Part shown: positions 1 through 10,385 of the stretch, one piece after another
Numbering within the stretch: the first letter of the stretch is position 1
Layout of the letters: the number at the start of each line of letters is the position of its first letter
DNA from: Bacteroidales bacterium
GTDB lineage: Bacteria > Bacteroidota > Bacteroidia > Bacteroidales > JAAUTT01
NCBI GenBank assembly: GCA_012031335.1
Contig: JAAUTT010000078.1
Coordinates: forward strand, 1 to 10,385
DNA: 10,385 nucleotides
Direction: 5' to 3'
The notes under the pieces: generated by a model
Database searches by the model: none
Told to the model about the DNA's origin: nothing
Seen by the model: only the letters and a program-made list of their open reading frames with translations
Made by a program: the position numbers and the translations under genes

Positions 1-936
1 TTCTGTGATTCACAAACAAATATCCCTACTGATTTGTCCATTTGTACGTACGAAGAATAAGTGGAGATGCGTATCGCCGCCCTATCGTGAGCCGAGTCCT
101 GAGTCTGATCGTTTTTCTCTTTTTGTGTTTGTTTCCGCTCACTCTCTGTCGTTTCGTTTTGTTGCACTCTTCTTCTTTCTTTTTTTCAAAATCAGTTTTT
201 AATAATTTTTCAATAATTTGGAAATACTCGGTTTTTGAAAGAACATCAATTAAATTTTTGTATCACTTCTATAATTGTCCTCTGTTATTCTTTTAGTATT
301 ATGCCCAAACCTGGCCGTTTCGTAATCTCTAATATCATCAATTTGACTTTTGTGATATCGTTTACCATCTACTTCGATAATAACAGCACTTCGTTCTTTT
401 AAATCTTTTTCCTTATGATAAATAGTATTCTTTATAACGTTTTTATAATATGGAGCTTCGAAAGAAAAATCAACTCTTCCATTATCACCTCCGTCATTTG
501 TTAAAGTCTTTTTCTCTCTTTGATGCTGAAAAAACTGAATTAAGTATTTTTTATTTGCTGGAATTCCATTAAGAAATGCTCTTTCAAAATTACTTCCTAA
601 ATCTTCCTTATATAATTTCGGAATATCTGGTCTGGCATCAACTATATGTAACGCAGAAAAGAAATCCTCTGATTTAAAATCATTTGATATTAAGTTTAGC
701 TTTGAAGAAGTGTTATAGCTACAAATTGTGGGATTCCCTCTTGTTATAATATTATTTGTAACAGCTAAAAGTGGAGGTATATGTTTAGGGTTTTTTAAAT
801 CTAAATCAGTTATTACATCAAATGTTGAAACGAATTCGAGTAATCCAATAGTTTTAAACTTTAATTCCTTATTGTTTTTTAGCTCAAGGATGCTATCAAA
901 AACTTTTTTAGTAAGATAACTAGCTTTGAATTGCAT
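1..936 (-). CDS. N-terminal part of a large protein with a PD-(D/E)XK-like nuclease domain; frameshifted, runs off left edge
   Basis: An uninterrupted frame runs from the ATG at 936 to a TAA at 250-252 (228 aa). Residues about 145-205 contain NGRVDFSFEAPYY, then AVIIEVDGKRYH and DDIRDYETARFG. This D...ExD layout is seen in the nuclease-like domain at the N-terminus of large superfamily-II helicases of defence loci, so a helicase part to the left of the window is an inference. The stop follows a short A5 run (255-259). Adding one base gives TEDNYRSDTKNLIDVLSKTE and an open frame on to about 187. One more base in the A7 run at 180-186 opens a third frame to the edge (ending DKSVGIFVCESQ). The ATG shares one base with the stop of the 68-residue gene before it (TAATG), so it is the last visible gene of the operon. 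The protein family is uncertain; a C-terminally truncated pseudogene is the alternative. Confidence 0.55.
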
Positions 937-1142
937 TATTTATTTGTAACTACTTTAATTAATCTACCAACGGCTTGCATCAATAATTCAAAATCAGAAG
1001 TACTCAGCTTATCGTATTCAATGTATCTCTTTTTACGGGAATACAAGGATTTTAATCCTGAAATACTAAAAAGAACTTCCAAATATTCATTATATACTTT
1101 TTCTGGAATCTGACAGTCTTGTGCCATTGTGGAAGTAATCAT
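936..1142 (-). CDS. Small protein of unknown function (68 aa)
   Basis: I do not recognise this protein. It is predicted to be helical and soluble, with no membrane segment or cysteine pair; the middle is basic (GLKSLYSRKKRYIEY) and the C-terminus is FELLMQAVGRLIKVVTNK. The ATG at 1142 overlaps the upstream TGA as ATGA, and an internal ATG five codons later is a possible alternative start. Its stop overlaps the next start by one base. This double coupling between two nuclease-like genes makes it likely to be real and translated with them, perhaps as a small subunit or adaptor. That role is inference from position only. Confidence 0.6.
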   Translation of the reverse strand: MITSTMAQDCQIPEKVYNEYLEVLFSISGLKSLYSRKKRYIEYDKLSTSDFELLMQAVGRLIKVVTNK

Positions 1143-2074
1143 TGAAATATATGTGGGATATATATCCAGAATTGTAATCCATTTATCGTTAATGCATCTT
1201 TAACACTGAATCCCATTACTCCCCAGTATAAGAACAATTCGGGATTATTTAACCATTCATTTATCCAAATATCAAGTAATGGCGCTTTATCAGCCCTGCA
1301 TTGTGAGATAAATGTTTCTTTGTTGGTTTTTGTCTTAGGTTGCTGTTTCTCATCTTCTAATTGAATATCCACTTTAGGCTTTTCATTATTGTATTGAACC
1401 CTTATTATACCTCTTACAATTTCAACCGTTTTACCAACAATGTCAGGTATTAAAATTATACCATCATTACATCTGAATAATTTCATCTCAATTAATGAAA
1501 GTGAAAAATTTAATCCCGGGGAGGATTGAATAGTATCGGACAAAAGCATCAGATTAGGTGATATTTTATCACCAACAATACTCAGTTTTAAACATCCTTC
1601 GTTCAGTTTTTTATTCAGCTGTTCTATTAAATCGGTACTTTTACCCGGAAATTCTTTTTTGATTATTTCTTCTAATGATAAAATTTTATTACTGTTTATA
1701 CTTTTTTGGGAAGTTATTATGGCATCATTTAAATCCATAAAATTCCACTTACTTAATTCCTTGGCGTAATCAATAACTTGAGCTAATACTGTTCTTGATT
1801 TTTCAGGATTCCTCCAGAGCTTTGTTTCAACAACAATTAAATCTGCTTCAGATGTTAATAATAATACATCAATAAAACCTGCTCCGCTATCTATTTCTCT
1901 ACCTAATGAAATAATTTTCAGATTCGAATCAAATGGATTTTCAATAGGATAACATTGAGGGTTTTCATGAATAATATTTTGAAGCCAATCTTCACTAAAA
2001 GTAGAGGTAGATTCATCAATTCTTGTGAGTTCCCTGGATTTGGTTCCGGAAATGATTAAAGGTTTTATGATCAT
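1139..2074 (-). CDS. PD-(D/E)XK family nuclease, NucS/DUF91-like
   Basis: This is a complete 311-aa ORF with the ordered signature of a PD-(D/E)XK core. E28 lies in a helix (SEDWLQNIIHENPQCYP), D69 in GFIDVLLLTSEADL, E83 and K85 in VVETKLWRNP, and Q99 in LAQVIDYAKEL. The stretch 'DVLLL..DLIVVETKLWRNPE.....AQVIDYAKELSKW' matches a widespread uncharacterised family related to the NucS/DUF91 nucleases. All expected catalytic residues are present, so DNA (or RNA) cleavage is plausible. The C-terminal third (from about 215) is a variable domain with a charged linker (EDEKQQPKTKTNKE) and an aromatic-rich end. It starts four bases inside the upstream gene and ends in an ATGA overlap with the next, so it is an internal operon gene. 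The substrate cannot be told from the sequence. Confidence 0.75.
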   Translation of the reverse strand: MIIKPLIISGTKSRELTRIDESTSTFSEDWLQNIIHENPQCYPIENPFDSNLKIISLGREIDSGAGFIDVLLLTSEADLIVVETKLWRNPEKSRTVLAQVIDYAKELSKWNFMDLNDAIITSQKSINSNKILSLEEIIKKEFPGKSTDLIEQLNKKLNEGCLKLSIVGDKISPNLMLLSDTIQSSPGLNFSLSLIEMKLFRCNDGIILIPDIVGKTVEIVRGIIRVQYNNEKPKVDIQLEDEKQQPKTKTNKETFISQCRADKAPLLDIWINEWLNNPELFLYWGVMGFSVKDALTINGLQFWIYIPHIFQ

Positions 2075-2730
2075 GATGTAGGTTTTAGTTTTGTTTTATT
2101 TAATTTCTGGTATTTCCAGATTTCAAAATCCAAATCTCTTAACGGATAATTGATTTTATAAGCTGCTTTTTCCAAAATATAAAGAGATTGAACAGCTGTA
2201 ACTTCTTTTCCAATAACATTTGAGATAAATGCTTTTATATGAACATCGGGTTTTGTTGTCTGTGCACCAAAAAGCATCCTTAAGTATTGAAAACCTGCTA
2301 ATCCGAAACCTTTTATTCCTAAAAAATACGCATCTCCAGGTCTTGCATTTTCGGCCCAGTTTTTACACCTAGTTAATTGGTCACCCGATTCATCATTAGC
2401 TATTTCAAGTAGCAAGTACTCACAAACCTCTTTTATTATTATCTCACGCTCAGTATGATTATAGTTCAATTCTGCATTAATAAATTCACCTTCTGAATAT
2501 TTTTTGATCAATTTCAGGAGATCTTCAATATTAAAGCAACTTGGATTGTTAATTCTAAATCTTTCAACTCTGGGTTTTACAACTTCTTCATATTTTCTGT
2601 TTAATGACAGCACACAATCCAGAATATTTAATGAAGGATTTTTCCAATCATAATTTGAGTTAGGTATTACTTTAGTAAATCTATTTTTTAATTCATTAGC
2701 AACTCTATCGATATCAGATATTATTATCAT
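2071..2730 (-). CDS. HhH-GPD (endonuclease III-like DNA glycosylase fold) protein
   Basis: A complete 219-aa ORF. The helix-hairpin-helix lies at residues 138-154 (GIKGFGLAGFQYLRMLFG) and is followed by KPDVHIKAF (160-168). Its Asp162 matches the conserved catalytic Asp of the endonuclease III/MutY superfamily ('GVGxKTA...VDTHV'). The Lys that makes bifunctional glycosylases cut the backbone (in GxKTA) is replaced: here the hairpin reads GFGLAG. It would therefore be a monofunctional glycosylase or a DNA-binding relative. I see no Fe-S cysteine cluster: only C39, C65, C103 and C122, scattered. The N-terminal half (DCVLSLNRKYEEVVKPRVERF) resembles the N-terminal helices of this fold. It overlaps the HEPN gene by 17 bases and the nuclease gene by four. 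Placement between an RNase-like gene and a nuclease suggests recognition of modified or foreign DNA; that is inference. Confidence 0.65.
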   Translation of the reverse strand: MIIISDIDRVANELKNRFTKVIPNSNYDWKNPSLNILDCVLSLNRKYEEVVKPRVERFRINNPSCFNIEDLLKLIKKYSEGEFINAELNYNHTEREIIIKEVCEYLLLEIANDESGDQLTRCKNWAENARPGDAYFLGIKGFGLAGFQYLRMLFGAQTTKPDVHIKAFISNVIGKEVTAVQSLYILEKAAYKINYPLRDLDFEIWKYQKLNKTKLKPTS

Positions 2731-3127
2731 TTACAAATATTTTTGTTTCAAGATGATTAATTATGCTTTGAATCTGTTCTATAATTTTAGGTTCAATTGA
2801 ATTTATCTCTCCATGAACAACTAGATTTCTGAACCTATTAATGTTTTTGAGGTCATGATATTGCTTTTCATTAATTAAAAGCTGACGAAATAAACCATAT
2901 ATCAATGAATTTAAACTATCAAGCTTTTCTTGTCCCCTATTATTAATAAAGTTTACATTCTTTTCTTTAGCAATTTTACGAATGAGCTGTTCAAGTTCAA
3001 TAAACTTATCTAAAAATTTAATCCTTGGTATAGTATTAATTGATTCTTTTTCAAAGGCCTCATTATCCTCTTTTATAAGTTTAGCAGCAGTAAGTTTTAT
3101 TTTATTTGGATTTATTATGTATATCAC
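2714..3127 (-). CDS. HEPN-domain protein; probably the C-terminal half of a membrane-anchored HEPN protein
   Basis: The frame is open for 137 codons from a GTG at 3125-3127 that follows a T9 run; no ATG lies near. Residues 36-130 form a helical bundle ending in NINRFRNLVVHGEI, where R100-N-x3-H105 is the Rx4H motif of HEPN RNases, with the usual polar residue after Arg. HEPN domains with this motif are typical RNA-cleaving effectors of abortive-infection and toxin systems. The first residues (VIYIINPNKIKLTAAKLIKE) read as the end of a transmembrane helix plus a basic juxtamembrane stretch. This fits them being continuous with the membrane segment encoded just upstream in another frame. Removing one T from the T9 run (3128-3136) joins the two into a 249-aa protein, a layout I recall from intact homologues. 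A separate GTG-started protein is possible but less likely. Confidence 0.65.
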   Translation of the reverse strand: MIYIINPNKIKLTAAKLIKEDNEAFEKESINTIPRIKFLDKFIELEQLIRKIAKEKNVNFINNRGQEKLDSLNSLIYGLFRQLLINEKQYHDLKNINRFRNLVVHGEINSIEPKIIEQIQSIINHLETKIFVNDNNI

Positions 3128-3464
3128 AAAAAAAAATAGCTAAAGCAATTGTTATAAAATTAATCAATCCAACAAATCCAGTTAAAATTCCTAACCAATA
3201 GCCCAGTTGATATCCATTAAGAAACAATAAACTTAAACTGGATGCAATTGATATTCCCGTTAAAACAAGGAGTGCAAATATTCTTCTGTAATATTGATTT
3301 TTAATCTCATTATTTATCTCTTCGAGAGTTTCATCCAGTTCAACTGCTTTATCTAATCTTTCATAAGCAAAGAATAATCCTGCCGTTAAAAATCCGGTAA
3401 AAGCTGCAATTGATTGAGCTGAAGAACTGAATAACCAATATATGTTATCGGGTCCGTTTTGCAT
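3102..3464 (-). CDS. Three-helix membrane segment, N-terminal half of a TM-HEPN protein
   Basis: First gene of the leftward operon, 120 codons from an ATG at 3464. Hydrophobic helices lie at about residues 9-33 (YWLFSSSAQSIAAFTGFL), 61-84 (FALLVLTGISIASSLSLL) and 87-112. An acidic loop at about 35-57 (ERLDKAVELDETLEEINNEI) is presumably cytoplasmic. There is no cleavable signal peptide; the first helix is an anchor. The ORF ends soon after the T9 run with the hydrophilic tail CDIHNKSK, which cuts helix three short. With T8 the reading continues AIFFVIYIINPNKIK into the HEPN domain. The full protein would place an RNase-like domain at the inner membrane, as in membrane-tethered abortive-infection effectors. 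No nuclease motif is in this half itself. Confidence 0.65.
   Translation of the reverse strand: MQNGPDNIYWLFSSSAQSIAAFTGFLTAGLFFAYERLDKAVELDETLEEINNEIKNQYYRRIFALLVLTGISIASSLSLLFLNGYQLGYWLGILTGFVGLINFITIALAIFFCDIHNKSK
3128..3136 (-). other. T9 run (A9 on plus strand) at the TM/HEPN frame boundary
   Basis: Nine consecutive T residues on the coding strand lie exactly where the membrane frame leaves the HEPN frame. One T fewer fuses the frames. Candidates are a sequencing error, phase variation, or transcriptional slippage. Confidence 0.6.
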
Positions 3465-3820: not shown

Positions 3821-4482
3821 ATGACAAACATTATTCGGTTTCAACTAACTCTGATACAAAGTATATTACTTATGGCTTACGGGATTGGAATGCTTTTTTC
3901 AATATTTTTTTAATTCCGGTTTTTGGTGGTAATGATTTTTGCAATTATTCTGTTTTCAGGGAATTTACGTCTTGGGAGTCTATTTCCCATTGCCTTTGCA
4001 ATTCTTCTAATTGGATATATTTTTAGAATTCAGCACTGGGTTGGCTCTGCTTTTATACTATCTATCGGAATACTAATTTTTGTTATAGCAACCACTCTAA
4101 AACTCATTAATAATGCTTATGAATTAAGCCTTATTCTTTTATACATCACCTGCTTGATCTTTGCTTTAGCTATGTTATTAAAGATTTTTCACTATCCATT
4201 TTTTTTGGATTTTTTATTATTGGGTTTATATCTCTTTCAATTTCTTATTTAATAAGATTTGTATTAAAATCTTATAAAAACTTTGAAGATTATAATAAAC
4301 TTTTACTGGTGATCTTCTGGTCTGCGGATGCTGTTTTTTACATATTCCATTGGTTTGGAGGAGATTTACTACATGTTTTAACTATTATTCTCTTTTGGAC
4401 ATGGTTAATTTATTCTTTGGTCAGGGAAATTAATAAGAAGAAATCAATTACTAATAAACTGAAAAATGGATTCATTGCCTAA
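3821..4482 (+). pseudogene. GldL-like polytopic membrane protein, copy 1 (frameshifted)
   Basis: Reading starts at ATG 3821 (MTNIIRFQLTLIQSILLMAY) and meets a TAA at about 3912. The middle is open as a 109-codon frame (3923-4252), and the last part (about 4210-4482) is in a third frame ending KNGFIA. Alignment with copy 2 places the lesions in the T7 run near 3909-3915, at GG near 3928-3929, and in the T8 run at 4201-4208; adding a T there gives HYPFFFGFFIIGF against HYPYQFEFFITGF. The reconstructed protein is about 220 aa with six or more membrane helices. It has three motifs with His followed by an aromatic residue: FRIQHWVGS, LKIFHYPFF and YIFHWFGGD. The spacing and the 'K.xHW.G' motif recall the N-terminal membrane part of the Bacteroidota gliding/secretion protein GldL. 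That relationship is only suggestive and the function is unknown. Confidence 0.6.
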
Positions 4483-5041: not shown

Positions 5042-5962
5042 TTATGATTTCAGTTTTTCTTCTAAAACTTTTACAAATTCTGCATGTTTTTTAGGATTGG
5101 TTTCCTTCAGCTTTTTAAGATTTTCAAGTTTCCATTTAACCGCAGGAAAATCTTTCAGATTCTCAACAGGAAATAGCTTCCAATCGGGTTCACCATTTTT
5201 AAAACTTAACAGGAAAGATTTATCTGTTTCTTTTAATTTGGAATGAATTTCATTTAAAAGTCTTTTTCGGGTGTTTTCGTATTCTTCATATGAAAACGGG
5301 GCTGCAGTCATTCCGGAAAATTGATTTTCAAAAGTTTCTTTTTGATCTGAAAGATGAGGAAACAACACTTCATTTATTGGGCGCATATGACTTAGAAGAG
5401 CTGTGAGAAAACCAATTTTTATATCATCAGTGTAACCTTCATTTTCAAATAATAAATGAACATCAAACAGGTCGCGCGGATGCTGTCTGTCCAAAGCTGC
5501 ACAAATTTTTCCTCCATAAAGTTCTGCTTGCGATACTACATTTATGGCAGCAAACTTTTTAAATTCTTTCTGAACTGTTTCTGAAACCTGAAGTAAGCGA
5601 ACAGGTTGTATAATTCCCCGGGTTGTGGAATTAACCTCAATTTTGATTTGAGCTTTGTCCAGTTGACAATGAAGTTTAATATCTTCGTTTTCTCTCAGGG
5701 CAGGAGTAACTGTTAAATTCTTAACTGATTTTTCCAGATTCTGCTTGATTCGACTCAGTCCTTCAGAAATATTATGCAAAGCAGTTGATCTGTCATCAAA
5801 AGGTAAATATGTCAAATCGATATCTACCGATAATCTTGGCATATCCAGAACAAACAGATTGATGGCAGTGCCTCCTTTTAGAGCAAATATTTTTTCTTTT
5901 GCCACATGTGGTAATACCTGTAAAAGAAGGTCAGCCTGAGCCCAGTATTTAGCGAAGATCAT
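5042..5962 (-). CDS. abiEii: AbiEii toxin, nucleotidyltransferase (type IV toxin-antitoxin)
   Basis: An intact 306-aa ORF with the nucleotidyltransferase signature of the AbiEii/AbiGii (DUF1814) family. FALKGGTAINLF (27-37) holds the GG(T/S) turn, and RLSVDIDLTYLP (43-54) the paired Asp47/Asp49 that bind the metal-nucleotide. ELYGGKICAALDRQHPRDLFDVHLLF (147-172) holds the conserved Lys152 and the R-D-x2-D motif with Asp164 and Asp167. Family members transfer nucleotides (to tRNA ends in the MenT relatives; AbiEii itself binds GTP) and halt growth on phage infection. The ATG overlaps the antitoxin stop as ATGA, the normal antitoxin-first coupling. Length is normal and no lesion is seen, so the toxin gene looks functional, which would require a working antitoxin. 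Confidence 0.9.
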   Translation of the reverse strand: MIFAKYWAQADLLLQVLPHVAKEKIFALKGGTAINLFVLDMPRLSVDIDLTYLPFDDRSTALHNISEGLSRIKQNLEKSVKNLTVTPALRENEDIKLHCQLDKAQIKIEVNSTTRGIIQPVRLLQVSETVQKEFKKFAAINVVSQAELYGGKICAALDRQHPRDLFDVHLLFENEGYTDDIKIGFLTALLSHMRPINEVLFPHLSDQKETFENQFSGMTAAPFSYEEYENTRKRLLNEIHSKLKETDKSFLLSFKNGEPDWKLFPVENLKDFPAVKWKLENLKKLKETNPKKHAEFVKVLEEKLKS

Positions 5963-6722
5963 AATCCTGCCAGTTCTTTAGGTATAGAAATATTAAACTG
6001 GGAAACATATATACCGCCTTTTACGACACTTCGGTCACCATGGCCAAGAGAAATTTTTGAAAGATCGATAAAAGAAAGCCATTGGTGATTAGCTTTATGG
6101 GCCATGTAAAGAAAAAGTCTTTTTACTTTTACAGACTTGCATAATTCAAGTAATTGCTGAAGTTCACCAGGACGTAAATTTGTTAAACCTTCAAATAATT
6201 GATAACATTCAATTAGATCAAACTGATCGGGCGCCAGGTACAAACATTCAAGTATTGCTCTTTCCGGTGAAGATATTTGAATAGAGAAATTTTTTTCTTC
6301 ATTTTTAACCAATCCGATTTCAGAGGGGAGCATTGAAGTTTTTATGTGTTCTATCTTTACATTCCAGTTATATTGAAGGAACCATACAGGTAATTTTATT
6401 TGAGGAGAAAACAGGTGAAGAGTTTCTTCACCTAAGCGAACATAATGAGCCAATCCCTGCAATGATAGGGCGGAAGGACCACCAACATGGACCGGTAAAT
6501 TAGCCTGGGTTTGTATTGCAAAAAGCCCTCCTTGCCATTGAACCTGATCTTTTGGTCTTTTAAATGCTCCTGTTCCAACACTTTCTAACCATCCGCTCTT
6601 ACGATAATACTTTTGAAGGTCATAAGAGATTCCTTTTTTTTCCAGCCATGAAGCTAATAAGACCGTTCCGGGTATATGTTCCTCTAAAGGTTCTTTAATT
6701 TTTTATCTGTATTGGTAGTCAT
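5959..6722 (-). CDS. abiEi: AbiEi antitoxin/transcriptional repressor (one frameshift after the start)
   Basis: The uninterrupted frame reads from about 6697 to a TGA at 5959, but the only suitable ATG, at 6722 (MTTNTDKK), is in another frame. One added A in the A6 run at 6699-6704 joins them into a 254-aa protein. The N-terminal winged helix is typical of AbiEi: TVLLASWLEKKGISYDLQKY, RKSGWLESVGTGAFKR, and WQGGLFAIQTQANLPVHVGG. The rest (from about residue 88) is the toxin-neutralising domain, with SSPERAILECLYLAP and KRLFLYMAHKANHQW. A start at the in-frame TTG 6462 would discard the whole DNA-binding domain, so I reject it. AbiEi blocks AbiEii action and represses its own operon through two inverted repeats. 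Two matching repeats lie at and before this start. Confidence 0.82.
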
Positions 6723-6884: not shown

Positions 6885-7520
6885 ATGGGAAATATTCATC
6901 GATTTCAGTTAACCCTGATACAAAGTATATTACTCATGGCTTACGGCTTCGGAATGATGTTTTATTCAGTTTTTTCAAATCCGGCCGGTTGGGTCATAAT
7001 GATTATTGCTATTATTTTGTTTTCAGGAAATTTACAGTTTGGAAAATTATTTACCATCGCATTCGTCATACTGCTGATTGGCTATATTTTTAAAATTCAA
7101 CATTGGAAAGGCTCTGCAATTTTAATAGAAACCGGTATGCTTGTTTTTGCAATTGCAGCCTTTTTTAAATTCATTTATAAAACTTATAAATTAAACCTCA
7201 TTCTGTTATACATTTCTTGTTTGATTATTGCCACTGCTATTCTCTTAAAACTATTTCACTACCCTTACCAGTTTGAATTTTTTATTACAGGGTTTTCTCT
7301 TCTTGTCATTTCTTACTTGTTCAGGTGAGATAAGAACTTTGAAGATTATAATAAGCTATTATTGGTGATCTTTTGGTCTGTTGCAGCTATATTTAATATA
7401 TTTCATTGGATCGGAGGAAATTTTCTGTCTGTATTTACTGCTATTTTCTTTTGGACCTGGCTAATTTATTCTTTGGTCAGGGAACTTAAAAAGAAAAAAA
7501 CAAGTGGATTGTTCACATAA
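6885..7520 (+). pseudogene. GldL-like polytopic membrane protein, copy 2 (in-frame TGA)
   Basis: The reading frame is continuous from ATG 6885 to TAA 7518-7520 except for one TGA at 7326-7328. The first 147 residues carry about five membrane helices (MGNIHRFQLTLIQSILLMAY, VIMIIAIILFSGN and so on). After the stop the same frame continues as DKNFEDYNKLLLVIFW and ends in a helix plus the basic tail RELKKKKTSG. Copy 1 has the matching region without the stop and with about four extra codons, so copy 2 has a small deletion next to the nonsense change. The three His-aromatic motifs are FKIQHWKGS, LKLFHYPYQ and NIFHWIGGN. A truncated 147-aa protein could still be made, lacking the last two helices. 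Copy 2 starts 3064 bases after copy 1, in direct orientation, and the two bracket the abiE module. Confidence 0.65.
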
Positions 7521-8116: not shown

Positions 8117-9124
8117 TTATAGATCAGTAAGATCAAAACTGTAATCATATTTTATCAGTTGTCTGCCTGATTCAAAATTTTCTTTCCATGCCTTTTCTTT
8201 ATGACTTAAAGCAATCATACTATTAGTGCTTGTTCTTTGAAATTTTTTTGCAACTTCTTTAATAGTGTATACTCATCGGCAGTTAAAATACCTTCTTCAA
8301 ATTTTCTTTTAGGATTTAAAATGAATTGTTCCCCAATATTCCCATCTTGAAATTCTATGTGATTTATTATCACATCTTCATTATTGCTGATATATTCAAA
8401 ATACTCTGAAAATTGTTAGGAACTGGTCCCATATCTATTGCTCTATACCTAACACCACTTATTGAAAAACAAGTCTTTTTGAAATGAAGGAAATCGGCAT
8501 AAAAAAGAAGTTTATTAAGTTTTGTTTTCCAAGGTTGTAATTCTTTTGCAAAATAAACAACCATCTCAGTAAATTTAGCCAAATTAGGTGTTTTAAAACC
8601 TGAATAAATATCAGGGTTCCTTGATCCAAGTAAATAATCTATCAGGTGAAGTTTAAATTGACCTGCATTTTCAGCTTCAATAATTTTTTCTATGTGTTTC
8701 TTAATTTTATTTAGTTCATTTTCCGAATAAACACCACTAATCTCAACTAATTCCAGAAACTTAACAGGATCTTTTGCTACATGAATTAATCTTGCATTTG
8801 ATTCATTTGGTACTTCACCTGCTTCATAATTTCGATATGTATTTTATTCCAAAACCTAAAAACTTCTGACATTTTGGAAGCAGATAAACCATATTTCTCC
8901 CTTATAGATATAATCTCATCAGGGAAAGGCAGATTATGTGCCACCCTGAATTGATTATAAAGTTGGTTGAGGTTAATCTCATCCAATTCTTCATTAGTAA
9001 ATTGTTCTTTTGAATCCTTACAAAGGAAAAAATGATAATTGACATCGAATTTTTCTTTACGAAATATCAATGTTCTGATTTCATTTTGCAGGATCATTTC
9101 CTTTCCTGTAAAAGGGCTTTTCAT
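8117..9124 (-). pseudogene. MqsA-like/Panacea (SocA, DUF4065) fusion antitoxin, four frameshifts
   Basis: Four frame segments join into one protein of about 335 aa. The ATG at 9124 begins MKSPFTGKEM, with an MqsA-type N-terminal domain (HFFLCKDSKEQFTNEELDE) but only one Cys, so no zinc ribbon. An Xre-like helix-turn-helix follows (about 70-115): IREKYGLSASKMSEVLGFG, then YRNYEAGEVPNESNARL once the A5 (8858-8862) and T4 (8842-8845) plus-strand runs each lose one base. The Panacea domain (about 180-335) has TKLNKLLFYADFLHFKKTCF and RYRAIDMGPVPNNF. It continues after one added base at 8398-8401 and another near 8262-8274 to HKEKAWKENFESG and the stop at 8117. The net length change is zero. Panacea is a promiscuous toxin-neutralising domain; here it pairs with the MqsR-like gene 54 bases upstream. 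It is a functional gene if the lesions are sequencing errors. Confidence 0.75.
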
Positions 9125-9178: not shown

Positions 9179-9529
9179 CTACTTTTTAAATGGATAAGTT
9201 AATGAATACTCAGATATATGGAAGGAAATACATACTGGTCTATCTGAAAAATCTCCAAGTGTGATTTTAATATAAATTTCTTTTCCTTTAACTTCTTTTC
9301 CAAAAACCCACATTTCCATTCCATCATAATGTTTTTCGTTTAAAGGTCCGTCAGAATAATCTTGAATAATTAAATTTTCAATTATCCTATCTCTTTCCGA
9401 TGCTTTTAATTCTAAATCAGCAAGAGTTTGAGCGTTTTTTGATCGATCATCCAAATATAATATACCCCAGACTTTAGCCTTCTGCTTCAATAGTCGAAGA
9501 AACTTTTCGACCTTTTCTTTGTCACTCAT
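9179..9529 (-). CDS. MqsR-family toxin (mRNA interferase-like)
   Basis: A complete 116-aa ORF. The regions NAQTLADLELKASERDRII (32-50), LIIQDYSDGPL (53-63), MWVFGKEVKGKEIYIKITL (73-91) and VCISFHISEY (99-108) follow the MqsR order. That order is a helix with TL.xLGL, an x-L-xxxDYxxGP turn, a W-V-F/Y strand, a YxKI strand and a final I-S-F strand. MqsR is a RelE-fold ribonuclease that cleaves mRNA, at GCU in E. coli. The toxin precedes its antitoxin, as in mqsRA and unlike most type II pairs. The intergenic gap is 54 bases. Start ATG 9529 is supported by a nearby promoter-like TACATTTG and operator palindromes upstream. The gene is intact while the partner's frame is broken, which a cell could hardly tolerate; this supports reading the partner's breaks as errors. 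Confidence 0.75.
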   Translation of the reverse strand: MSDKEKVEKFLRLLKQKAKVWGILYLDDRSKNAQTLADLELKASERDRIIENLIIQDYSDGPLNEKHYDGMEMWVFGKEVKGKEIYIKITLGDFSDRPVCISFHISEYSLTYPFKK

Positions 9530-9856: not shown

Positions 9857-10385
9857 TCAAACAATGTCTAATTGCTGATATTTGGTCTTTAGGGTACCTA
9901 TATAAGCTGTCTTCATATCCTCTGATAAAAAAGACTTTTCAATCCATCCAATAGCATTTGGCATATTTTTCAGCATCCGTTTGAATGTGCTTTCTATTTG
10001 TTTATCTGTTAAATCCAAACTTTTCCCAAACCTTATAAAGTTTTCTTTTGATAGTTTTTTCTTTTTCCCTTCAATGGTTAAGGCCATTTTCTTCCTTATC
10101 ATCGGGTAAAATTATGGCAACATTTAACAGATCATAGGCCGGTGCTAATACCCACCCCGAAGCACCTCTGATCATAGAAAAGTTCTTAAGATGCATATCG
10201 TTATTTCCGGTTAAGAAACAGAACAAGGCTAATTCGAAGTAGAAAATTTTATCCAGCATGGTATTCTGGGAATAACTATGCAATGCCTTACCCACTTTCT
10301 CCATGGAGCTTTTGTATTTATCGAAAGCTTCGGTAATCTGAAACATATCGAGCATGTGAATTTTTTGTCCATTTTCAGTTCTGTC
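9857..10385 (-). pseudogene. hipA: HipA-family kinase toxin, C-terminal part (one frameshift, runs off right edge)
   Basis: It enters from the right edge in frame as DRTENGQKIHMLDMFQ, the family's 'HMxDFxQ' segment, so the internal ATG at 10355 is not a real start. The catalytic loop is CFLTGNNDMHLKNFS (Asp63, His65, Lys67, Asn68 of the visible part). The metal-binding Asp is in LAPAYDLLN (Asp85). The frame stops at 10071, but removing one base from the T4 run at 10088-10091 joins DDKEE to MALTIEGKKKKLSKENF and carries it to the natural stop at 9857. About 175 residues are visible; full HipA proteins are roughly 300-440. HipA phosphorylates glutamyl-tRNA synthetase or related targets and is held by HipB, which would lie beyond the right edge. 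Both catalytic Asp residues are kept, so it may be functional if the frameshift is an error. Confidence 0.8.

Follow-up and report, generated by a model that had tools for sequence, protein, structure and literature searches.

A run of overlapping reading frames on the minus strand, at the left end of a Bacteroidales contig, raises the question of whether it forms one undescribed anti-phage system or a row of separate defences. The stretch analysed here, which we refer to as the window, is 10,385 nucleotides long, and the original prediction read this end of it as five proteins probably acting together. We find real components, all of defence type, and no support for a new five-gene system. 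The best explanation, which we judge to stand about an even chance of being right, is a defence island in which one transcription unit carries four genes for separate or loosely coupled anti-phage modules.

Six open reading frames (ORFs) that overlap one another lie on the minus strand at 250-3464, and alignment of relatives reduces them to four genes: AB, C, DE and F. The 245-aa relative P0242 aligns end to end over ORFs A and B (residues 4-114 at 3458-3126 and residues 114-243 at 3127-2738, both at ~61% identity), and AB is therefore one gene, with a frame change near 3126-3136 at a 9-base run (3128-3136). P0123 (384 aa) and P0128 (382 aa) align over both ORF D (311 aa) and ORF E (68 aa), the frame of DE changing near 1199-1223. 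Because these two relatives span both pieces, the 68-aa 'small protein' (936-1142) of the original prediction is the C-terminal end of the DE nuclease in another frame, and its candidacy as an antitoxin or adaptor is ruled out; coverage of both halves of AB and of DE likewise rules out five separate proteins. The operon and its flank are laid out as follows:

2714-3464, minus strand: AB, a single gene encoding a membrane-anchored HEPN protein, read as ORFs A (3102-3464) and B (2714-3127)
2071-2730, minus strand: C, 219 aa, predicted HhH-GPD DNA glycosylase fold, intact
936-2074, minus strand: DE, one gene for a PD-(D/E)XK, NucS/DUF91-like protein, read as ORFs D (1139-2074) and E (936-1142)
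250-936, minus strand: F, the first 228 residues of a large protein with a DUF559-type nuclease and a RecQ/DpdF-like helicase, the remainder absent
1-250, no strand: contig end, where F has no recognisable continuation and G+C is raised over the first ~150 bases

The ORFs had been described as overlapping by 1 to 26 bases on one strand, and as listed the six do so; the 26-base case is the frame change within AB, and the true junctions overlap by 17 bases (AB/C), 4 bases (C/DE) and 1 base (DE/F). Because the junctions overlap in this way, an operon is probable and co-expression of AB, C, DE and F, as originally proposed, is likely. The window holds no exact copy of the Bacteroidetes-type promoter consensus, and the two sigma-70-like sites upstream of the operon both lie on the opposite strand and are no more than expected by chance; a scan of the window for RNA families and tRNAs returned none.

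The domain assignments fared better than the gene count: hydrophobic segments, an HEPN-like motif, the HhH-GPD fold and the motifs of two nuclease-type domains were all upheld, as was the view that the set matches no named system, since no Pfam, NCBIfam or PADLOC model names it. The six window ORFs gave no Pfam match above cut-off, and in NCBIfam window F, C, B and A, two C relatives and one DE relative likewise had no match above cut-off. PADLOC, run on the six window ORFs, matched DE weakly to PDC-S11 twice and, at chance level, to an orphan methyltransferase; the remaining five gave nothing. Profiles compared with the sequences of solved structures, at E up to 1, yielded no matches for DE, three for C and one for AB, none of them credible.

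AB carries two hydrophobic stretches upstream of a domain with the HEPN motif. Within its family (24 rows, the window's ORF B included), H218 of the R-x4-H motif is invariant, and R213 and N214 are conserved at 90% or more. The structure model of P0242 has a pLDDT of 80.7; HepT, Csm6 and further HEPN chains match its residues 140-245, but helical proteins can score as high by chance. Matches to HepT models fall below cut-off in both NCBIfam (19.3 versus 60 bits) and Pfam (17.2 versus 23.5). The best reading of AB is thus a predicted membrane-anchored HEPN RNase, mainly because of the R-x4-H motif. Queried as a read-through sequence, AB lists 48 proteins; one is ORF B of the window itself, and the remaining 47 range from 224 to 278 aa in length. 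This membrane HEPN family is unnamed above cut-off in Pfam and NCBIfam, and we count it as a novelty.

For C, the structure model and its structural matches predict an HhH-GPD fold over the whole protein, with a 3-methyladenine glycosylase as the best match; the matches listed share 8-17% identity, and no uracil DNA glycosylase chain is among them, the listed rows being of another fold. By sequence, C has no match in Pfam, NCBIfam or the solved structures. In Endonuclease III the catalytic Asp is expected ~20 residues after the hairpin, and in the C family D162, invariant in 40 rows, lies 19 residues past the hairpin residue G143. C has no Lys at the place used by bifunctional glycosylases, and the enzyme is probably monofunctional. 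The C query lists 797 proteins, the window's own included, and this HhH glycosylase family, which is unnamed, is a further novelty.

Close relatives of DE are ~380-390 aa long, and D69, E83 and K85 (P0121 numbering) are invariant in 20 rows, matching a D...ExK active site. The PADLOC match to PDC-S11 (E 2.2e-8) is partial, covering only positions 23-134 of 358. A full-length DE relative scores 16.7 bits against a cut-off of 216 for the NCBIfam NucS model, and two relatives reach 12.1 and 16.7 bits against a cut-off of 24 for Pfam NucS_C. The DE query lists 437 proteins, a count that takes in the query itself and the window's protein. One relative, on a Rhizobium plasmid (L009), adjoins a cytosine methyltransferase and Vsr; from our reading of unannotated ORFs, another lies by a cytosine methyltransferase (L036) and a third by type I restriction genes (L040), and no clear defence neighbour is seen in the ORF lists of L037 and L038. 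In a Mariniphaga genome the end of the DE gene appears to continue on another contig, where the next listed ORFs are lipoprotein-like and radical-SAM-like and belong to neither the AB, C nor F family.

F is the start of a recognisable helicase family: of its 228 residues, 1-227 align to residues 1-252 of L047, a helicase of 1502 aa (32%, E 9e-39), and more weakly to four further relatives (L013, L050, L048 and L007), with an alignment to L012 over 70 residues only. The concern raised with the original prediction, that the large gene might be an unrelated fragment, is ruled out by this alignment to helicase N-termini. The relatives are 1,313-1,502 aa long, and the window's F is the N-terminal nuclease-like domain only, cut off near the contig end. 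Their cores match the DEAD, RecQ and DpdF models; one of the two relatives tested reaches the NCBIfam cut-off for the RecQ family, and both miss that for DpdF (164 and 116 versus 550 bits). For DUF559, two relatives score 18.2 and 19.0, just under the Pfam cut-off of 20.6. A pattern search finds an E-[VI]-D-G nuclease motif in four of six relatives, and inspection adds a fifth (L048); the motif is missing from L012, where a methyltransferase-like stretch, below cut-off, takes its place.

At all five loci that extend far enough to show it (L007, L012, L013, L047 and L050; L048 stops short), the gene after the F-type helicase encodes a protein of 187-292 aa with one strongly hydrophobic stretch at its end. 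Four of these partner proteins, when aligned, share 18-21% identity, and their likeness is therefore one of layout; our reading of them, together with weak SMC-type matches, suggests that they are of coiled-coil type. We would expect a tail-anchored gene to the left of the window's contig, downstream of F. One helicase and tail-anchored gene pair sits between a type I restriction methyltransferase and Septu PtuA/PtuB, and ZacABC adjoins another F relative. The pairing of a DUF559-RecQ helicase with a tail-anchored partner recurs near defence genes, and we count this as a novelty too.

Translation in three frames gave no credible protein match to the left of F, and bases 1-260 have no match among plasmids. 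G+C per 100 bases is 0.35-0.49 over the first ~150 bases and 0.22-0.36 over the rest of the first kilobase. F may change frame at its listed end, and the continuation gave no match to its relatives.

Toxin-antitoxin-type genes lie elsewhere in the window:

5042-6462: AbiE pair, above Pfam cut-off
8373-8582: SocA piece, above Pfam cut-off
9182-9529: MqsR-like, below cut-off
10074-10385: HipA C-terminal piece, above Pfam cut-off

Three such loci had been said to adjoin the operon; the genes exist, at a distance of at least 1.6 kb upstream.

Whether the gene order recurs bears directly on the question. We probed 50 loci, many of them short, overlapping or ending at the match or contig end, with 5 AB, 5 C, 4 DE and 3 F proteins (E 1e-4) and found that 39 match one of the four families and that two or more occur together only in the window, with the same outcome in 41 loci. 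When relatives were compared for common contigs, judged by equal size (all 48 rows for AB, and for C and DE the 120 best rows out of 797 and 437, respectively, with the longest contig per cluster), only contigs of 1070 and 1330 bases emerged besides the window's own, too short for two whole genes. The proposal that these genes act together as one undescribed system is thus not supported, since among the 50 loci none besides the window carries two families and the listed relatives share no usable contig.

Distribution is sparse in the genomes sampled. Viral contigs hold one match each for C, DE and AB and none for an F relative queried with its first 453 residues; the C relative lies in a phage-type contig (L005) and the AB relative at the end of another (L019), each without the other three families. 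Genome contigs searched with DE gave three loci, one with a match only 28 residues long. Plasmid records number six each for C and for a DE relative (coverage up to 56% and up to 59%, respectively), one for F, two for an F relative and none for ORF B or an AB relative; phages searched with C gave none. In samples that overlap one another, C occurs in 1 of 296 genomes from the phylum of G001 (34 bits), in 0 of 393 from its order and in 1 of 149 from another phylum (23.5 bits); F occurs in 2 of 296 from the phylum of G001 and DE in 9 of 296, some weakly. AB matches 4 of 395 genomes from the phylum of G001, all at 20-23 bits, too weak for the same family, and an F relative is found in 4 of 159 genomes of one class, two of them already known. 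Neither of 2 chosen genomes has F, and none of 9 has AB.

Because the same row is absent from the relatives checked, the four genes may be separate defences side by side. Under this reading AB would be a membrane HEPN RNase that, once triggered, stops translation or kills the cell; C would remove a modified base to leave an abasic site; DE would act as a NucS-like endonuclease; and F would unwind and cut DNA, normally with a small tail-anchored partner of coiled-coil type whose gene would directly follow F, off the end of the contig. Relatives of each gene occur without the other three, and some lie near defence genes: ZacABC, the type I methyltransferase with Septu, and the cytosine methyltransferase with Vsr. 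From the plasmid and genome hits, 13 neighbourhoods were selected for viewing. The window itself has an AbiE pair and pieces of HipA and SocA. Against it, three successive overlapping junctions are more than a loose pile needs and suit one system equally well, some DE relatives have no evident defence neighbour (e.g., L037 and L038), the promoter search upstream was negative, and the negative result for a second copy comes from limited samples, the closest relatives (AB: P0242, P0243, P0245; C: P0002-P0005; DE: P0123-P0128) lying in metagenome contigs outside them. We infer the defence role, the substrates, co-transcription and the missing F partner, and our weighing of this and the following three readings is likewise an inference.

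The foremost rival, a single composite anti-phage system, is unlikely. In it, C would make abasic sites from modified phage bases, DE and F would act on the DNA so marked by cutting and unwinding it, and AB would serve as a membrane RNase fail-safe; these functions could follow one another, and the junction overlaps of 17, 4 and 1 bases fit. The glycosylases Brig1 and Brig3, of a different fold, are proven anti-phage enzymes, Brig3 with an operon partner (PMC11078745, PMC13160076). The failure to find two of the four families together, among the 50 loci, anywhere but in the window, or on a usable common contig among listed relatives, argues against such a system, as do AB and C relatives in viral contigs without the others and F relatives with a different, recurring partner. 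A fuller version, in which an HhH-fold glycosylase (not of the Brig1/Brig3 fold) makes abasic sites, the NucS-like nuclease and the DUF559-RecQ protein with its tail-anchored partner cut them, and the membrane HEPN protein is the fail-safe, all as an undescribed system, is more doubtful still. Searches of the open-access literature, with subscription papers mostly outside their scope, found neither an HhH-GPD glycosylase in phage defence, nor this gene set, nor the DUF559-RecQ and tail-anchored pair.

It is rather improbable that the locus is decayed or misassembled, its genes broken or read so and the set functionless at present. The frame changes in AB and DE are accompanied by an interrupted GldL-like gene (3821-4446), SocA and HipA are present as pieces only, and F lacks a recognisable continuation at the contig end, all of which would fit; however, C and AbiEii are full-length, and residues on both sides of the breaks in AB and DE align at 46-65% identity. 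The pattern suggests sequencing error or decay, and because the breaks hit defence and other genes alike, sequencing or assembly error fits better. In any event, the locus shows that four genes with broken frames can pass for a five-gene system.

Least probable is a non-defence DNA-repair cassette of a mobile element, combining base excision, NucS-like cutting and a RecQ-type helicase: repair families, too, include glycosylases, NucS-like proteins and RecQ-like proteins, and C has its best structural match in a 3-methyladenine glycosylase, but neither the membrane HEPN gene nor the DUF559-type nuclease domain suits repair, and the relatives' neighbours are often defence genes.

Returning to the four genes as modules of a defence island, each can be set beside a known system. 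AB has the R-x4-H motif in common with HepT (type VII toxin-antitoxin) and other HEPN RNases, and differs from HepT in its added N-terminal membrane helices and in an operon without a nucleotidyltransferase partner. DE shares the PD-(D/E)XK core with NucS/EndoMS (DUF91) and PDC-S11, with weak NucS and partial PDC-S11 matches; it differs in an extra C-terminal part, and a relative of it scores far below the NucS cut-off. The F relatives match DpdF, of the Dpd system, and RecQ helicases over the helicase core and add an N-terminal nuclease-type domain and a tail-anchored partner; PADLOC found no other dpd genes among the six window ORFs, and the window's piece of F is without the helicase part. 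C resembles MagIII, Endonuclease III, OGG1 and MutY in its predicted fold, its hairpin and an invariant Asp at the expected place, and differs in having no sequence match to Pfam or NCBIfam models or solved structures and structural matches of 8-17% identity. With Brig1, Brig2 and Brig3, C would share the role of a glycosylase as a possible anti-phage enzyme; Brig1 and Brig3 are described as being of the uracil DNA glycosylase type, with Brig3 acting with its partner in a two-gene operon (PMC11078745, PMC13160076), whereas C is predicted to be HhH-GPD. Should C prove to excise modified bases of phages, Brig-type immunity would gain a second fold.

The DUF559/RecQ-type helicase gene, the type whose N-terminal piece (F) lies near the left end of the window, is closely followed by a small tail-anchored gene in each of the five loci whose sequence extends to the following gene:

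L007 11905-16827, helicase and small tail-anchored genes
L012 10763-15885, helicase and small tail-anchored genes
L013 642-5769, helicase and small tail-anchored genes
L047 8630-13780, helicase and small tail-anchored genes
L050 9920-14910, helicase and small tail-anchored genes

At the contig end itself (window 1-150), G+C rises from about 0.28 to 0.45-0.49; a read end that is chimeric or of poor quality may lie here. Elsewhere in the window, the AbiE pair has a related GldL-like membrane gene on either side, with 66-70% identity between the two. These genes and a stretch beside AbiEi lie at:

window 3821-4446, first GldL-like membrane gene, interrupted
window 6462-6720, stretch upstream of the AbiEi ORF start
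window 6885-7517, second GldL-like membrane gene

The AbiEi ORF starts late, and a further frame break at 6462-6720 is suggested because the upstream sequence reads as more AbiEi protein.

Relatives of the HhH-GPD protein (C) and the PD-(D/E)XK protein (DE) lie among other genes, whose names here come from reading only:

L014 9175-11807, distant C relative and neighbours
L005 7926-10099, C relative and neighbour
L002 2772-4319, small lipoprotein-like gene, then radical-SAM-like gene
L035 681-2248, the same two types of gene, in that order

The L014 HhH protein (21.7% identity to C) overlaps a QueC-like gene and lies downstream of a gene that reads as kinase plus deoxyribosyltransferase; the locus may serve base modification or defence. 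On the viral-collection contig L005, a ParB/DNA-methyltransferase-like gene is back to back with the C relative, and an AbiE-like pair is also present. The L002 and L035 genes are near DE relatives, both in Bacteroidales genomes.

The helicase/tail-anchored pair adjoins type I methyltransferase and Septu PtuA/PtuB genes in L047, and ZacABC in L012. An oxygenase gene immediately precedes the L012 helicase:

L012 10147-15262, AlkB-like 2OG-oxygenase gene, then F-type helicase gene

This helicase has an N-terminal methyltransferase-like stretch in place of the nuclease motif, and the oxygenase gene matches PADLOC CARF_2OG.
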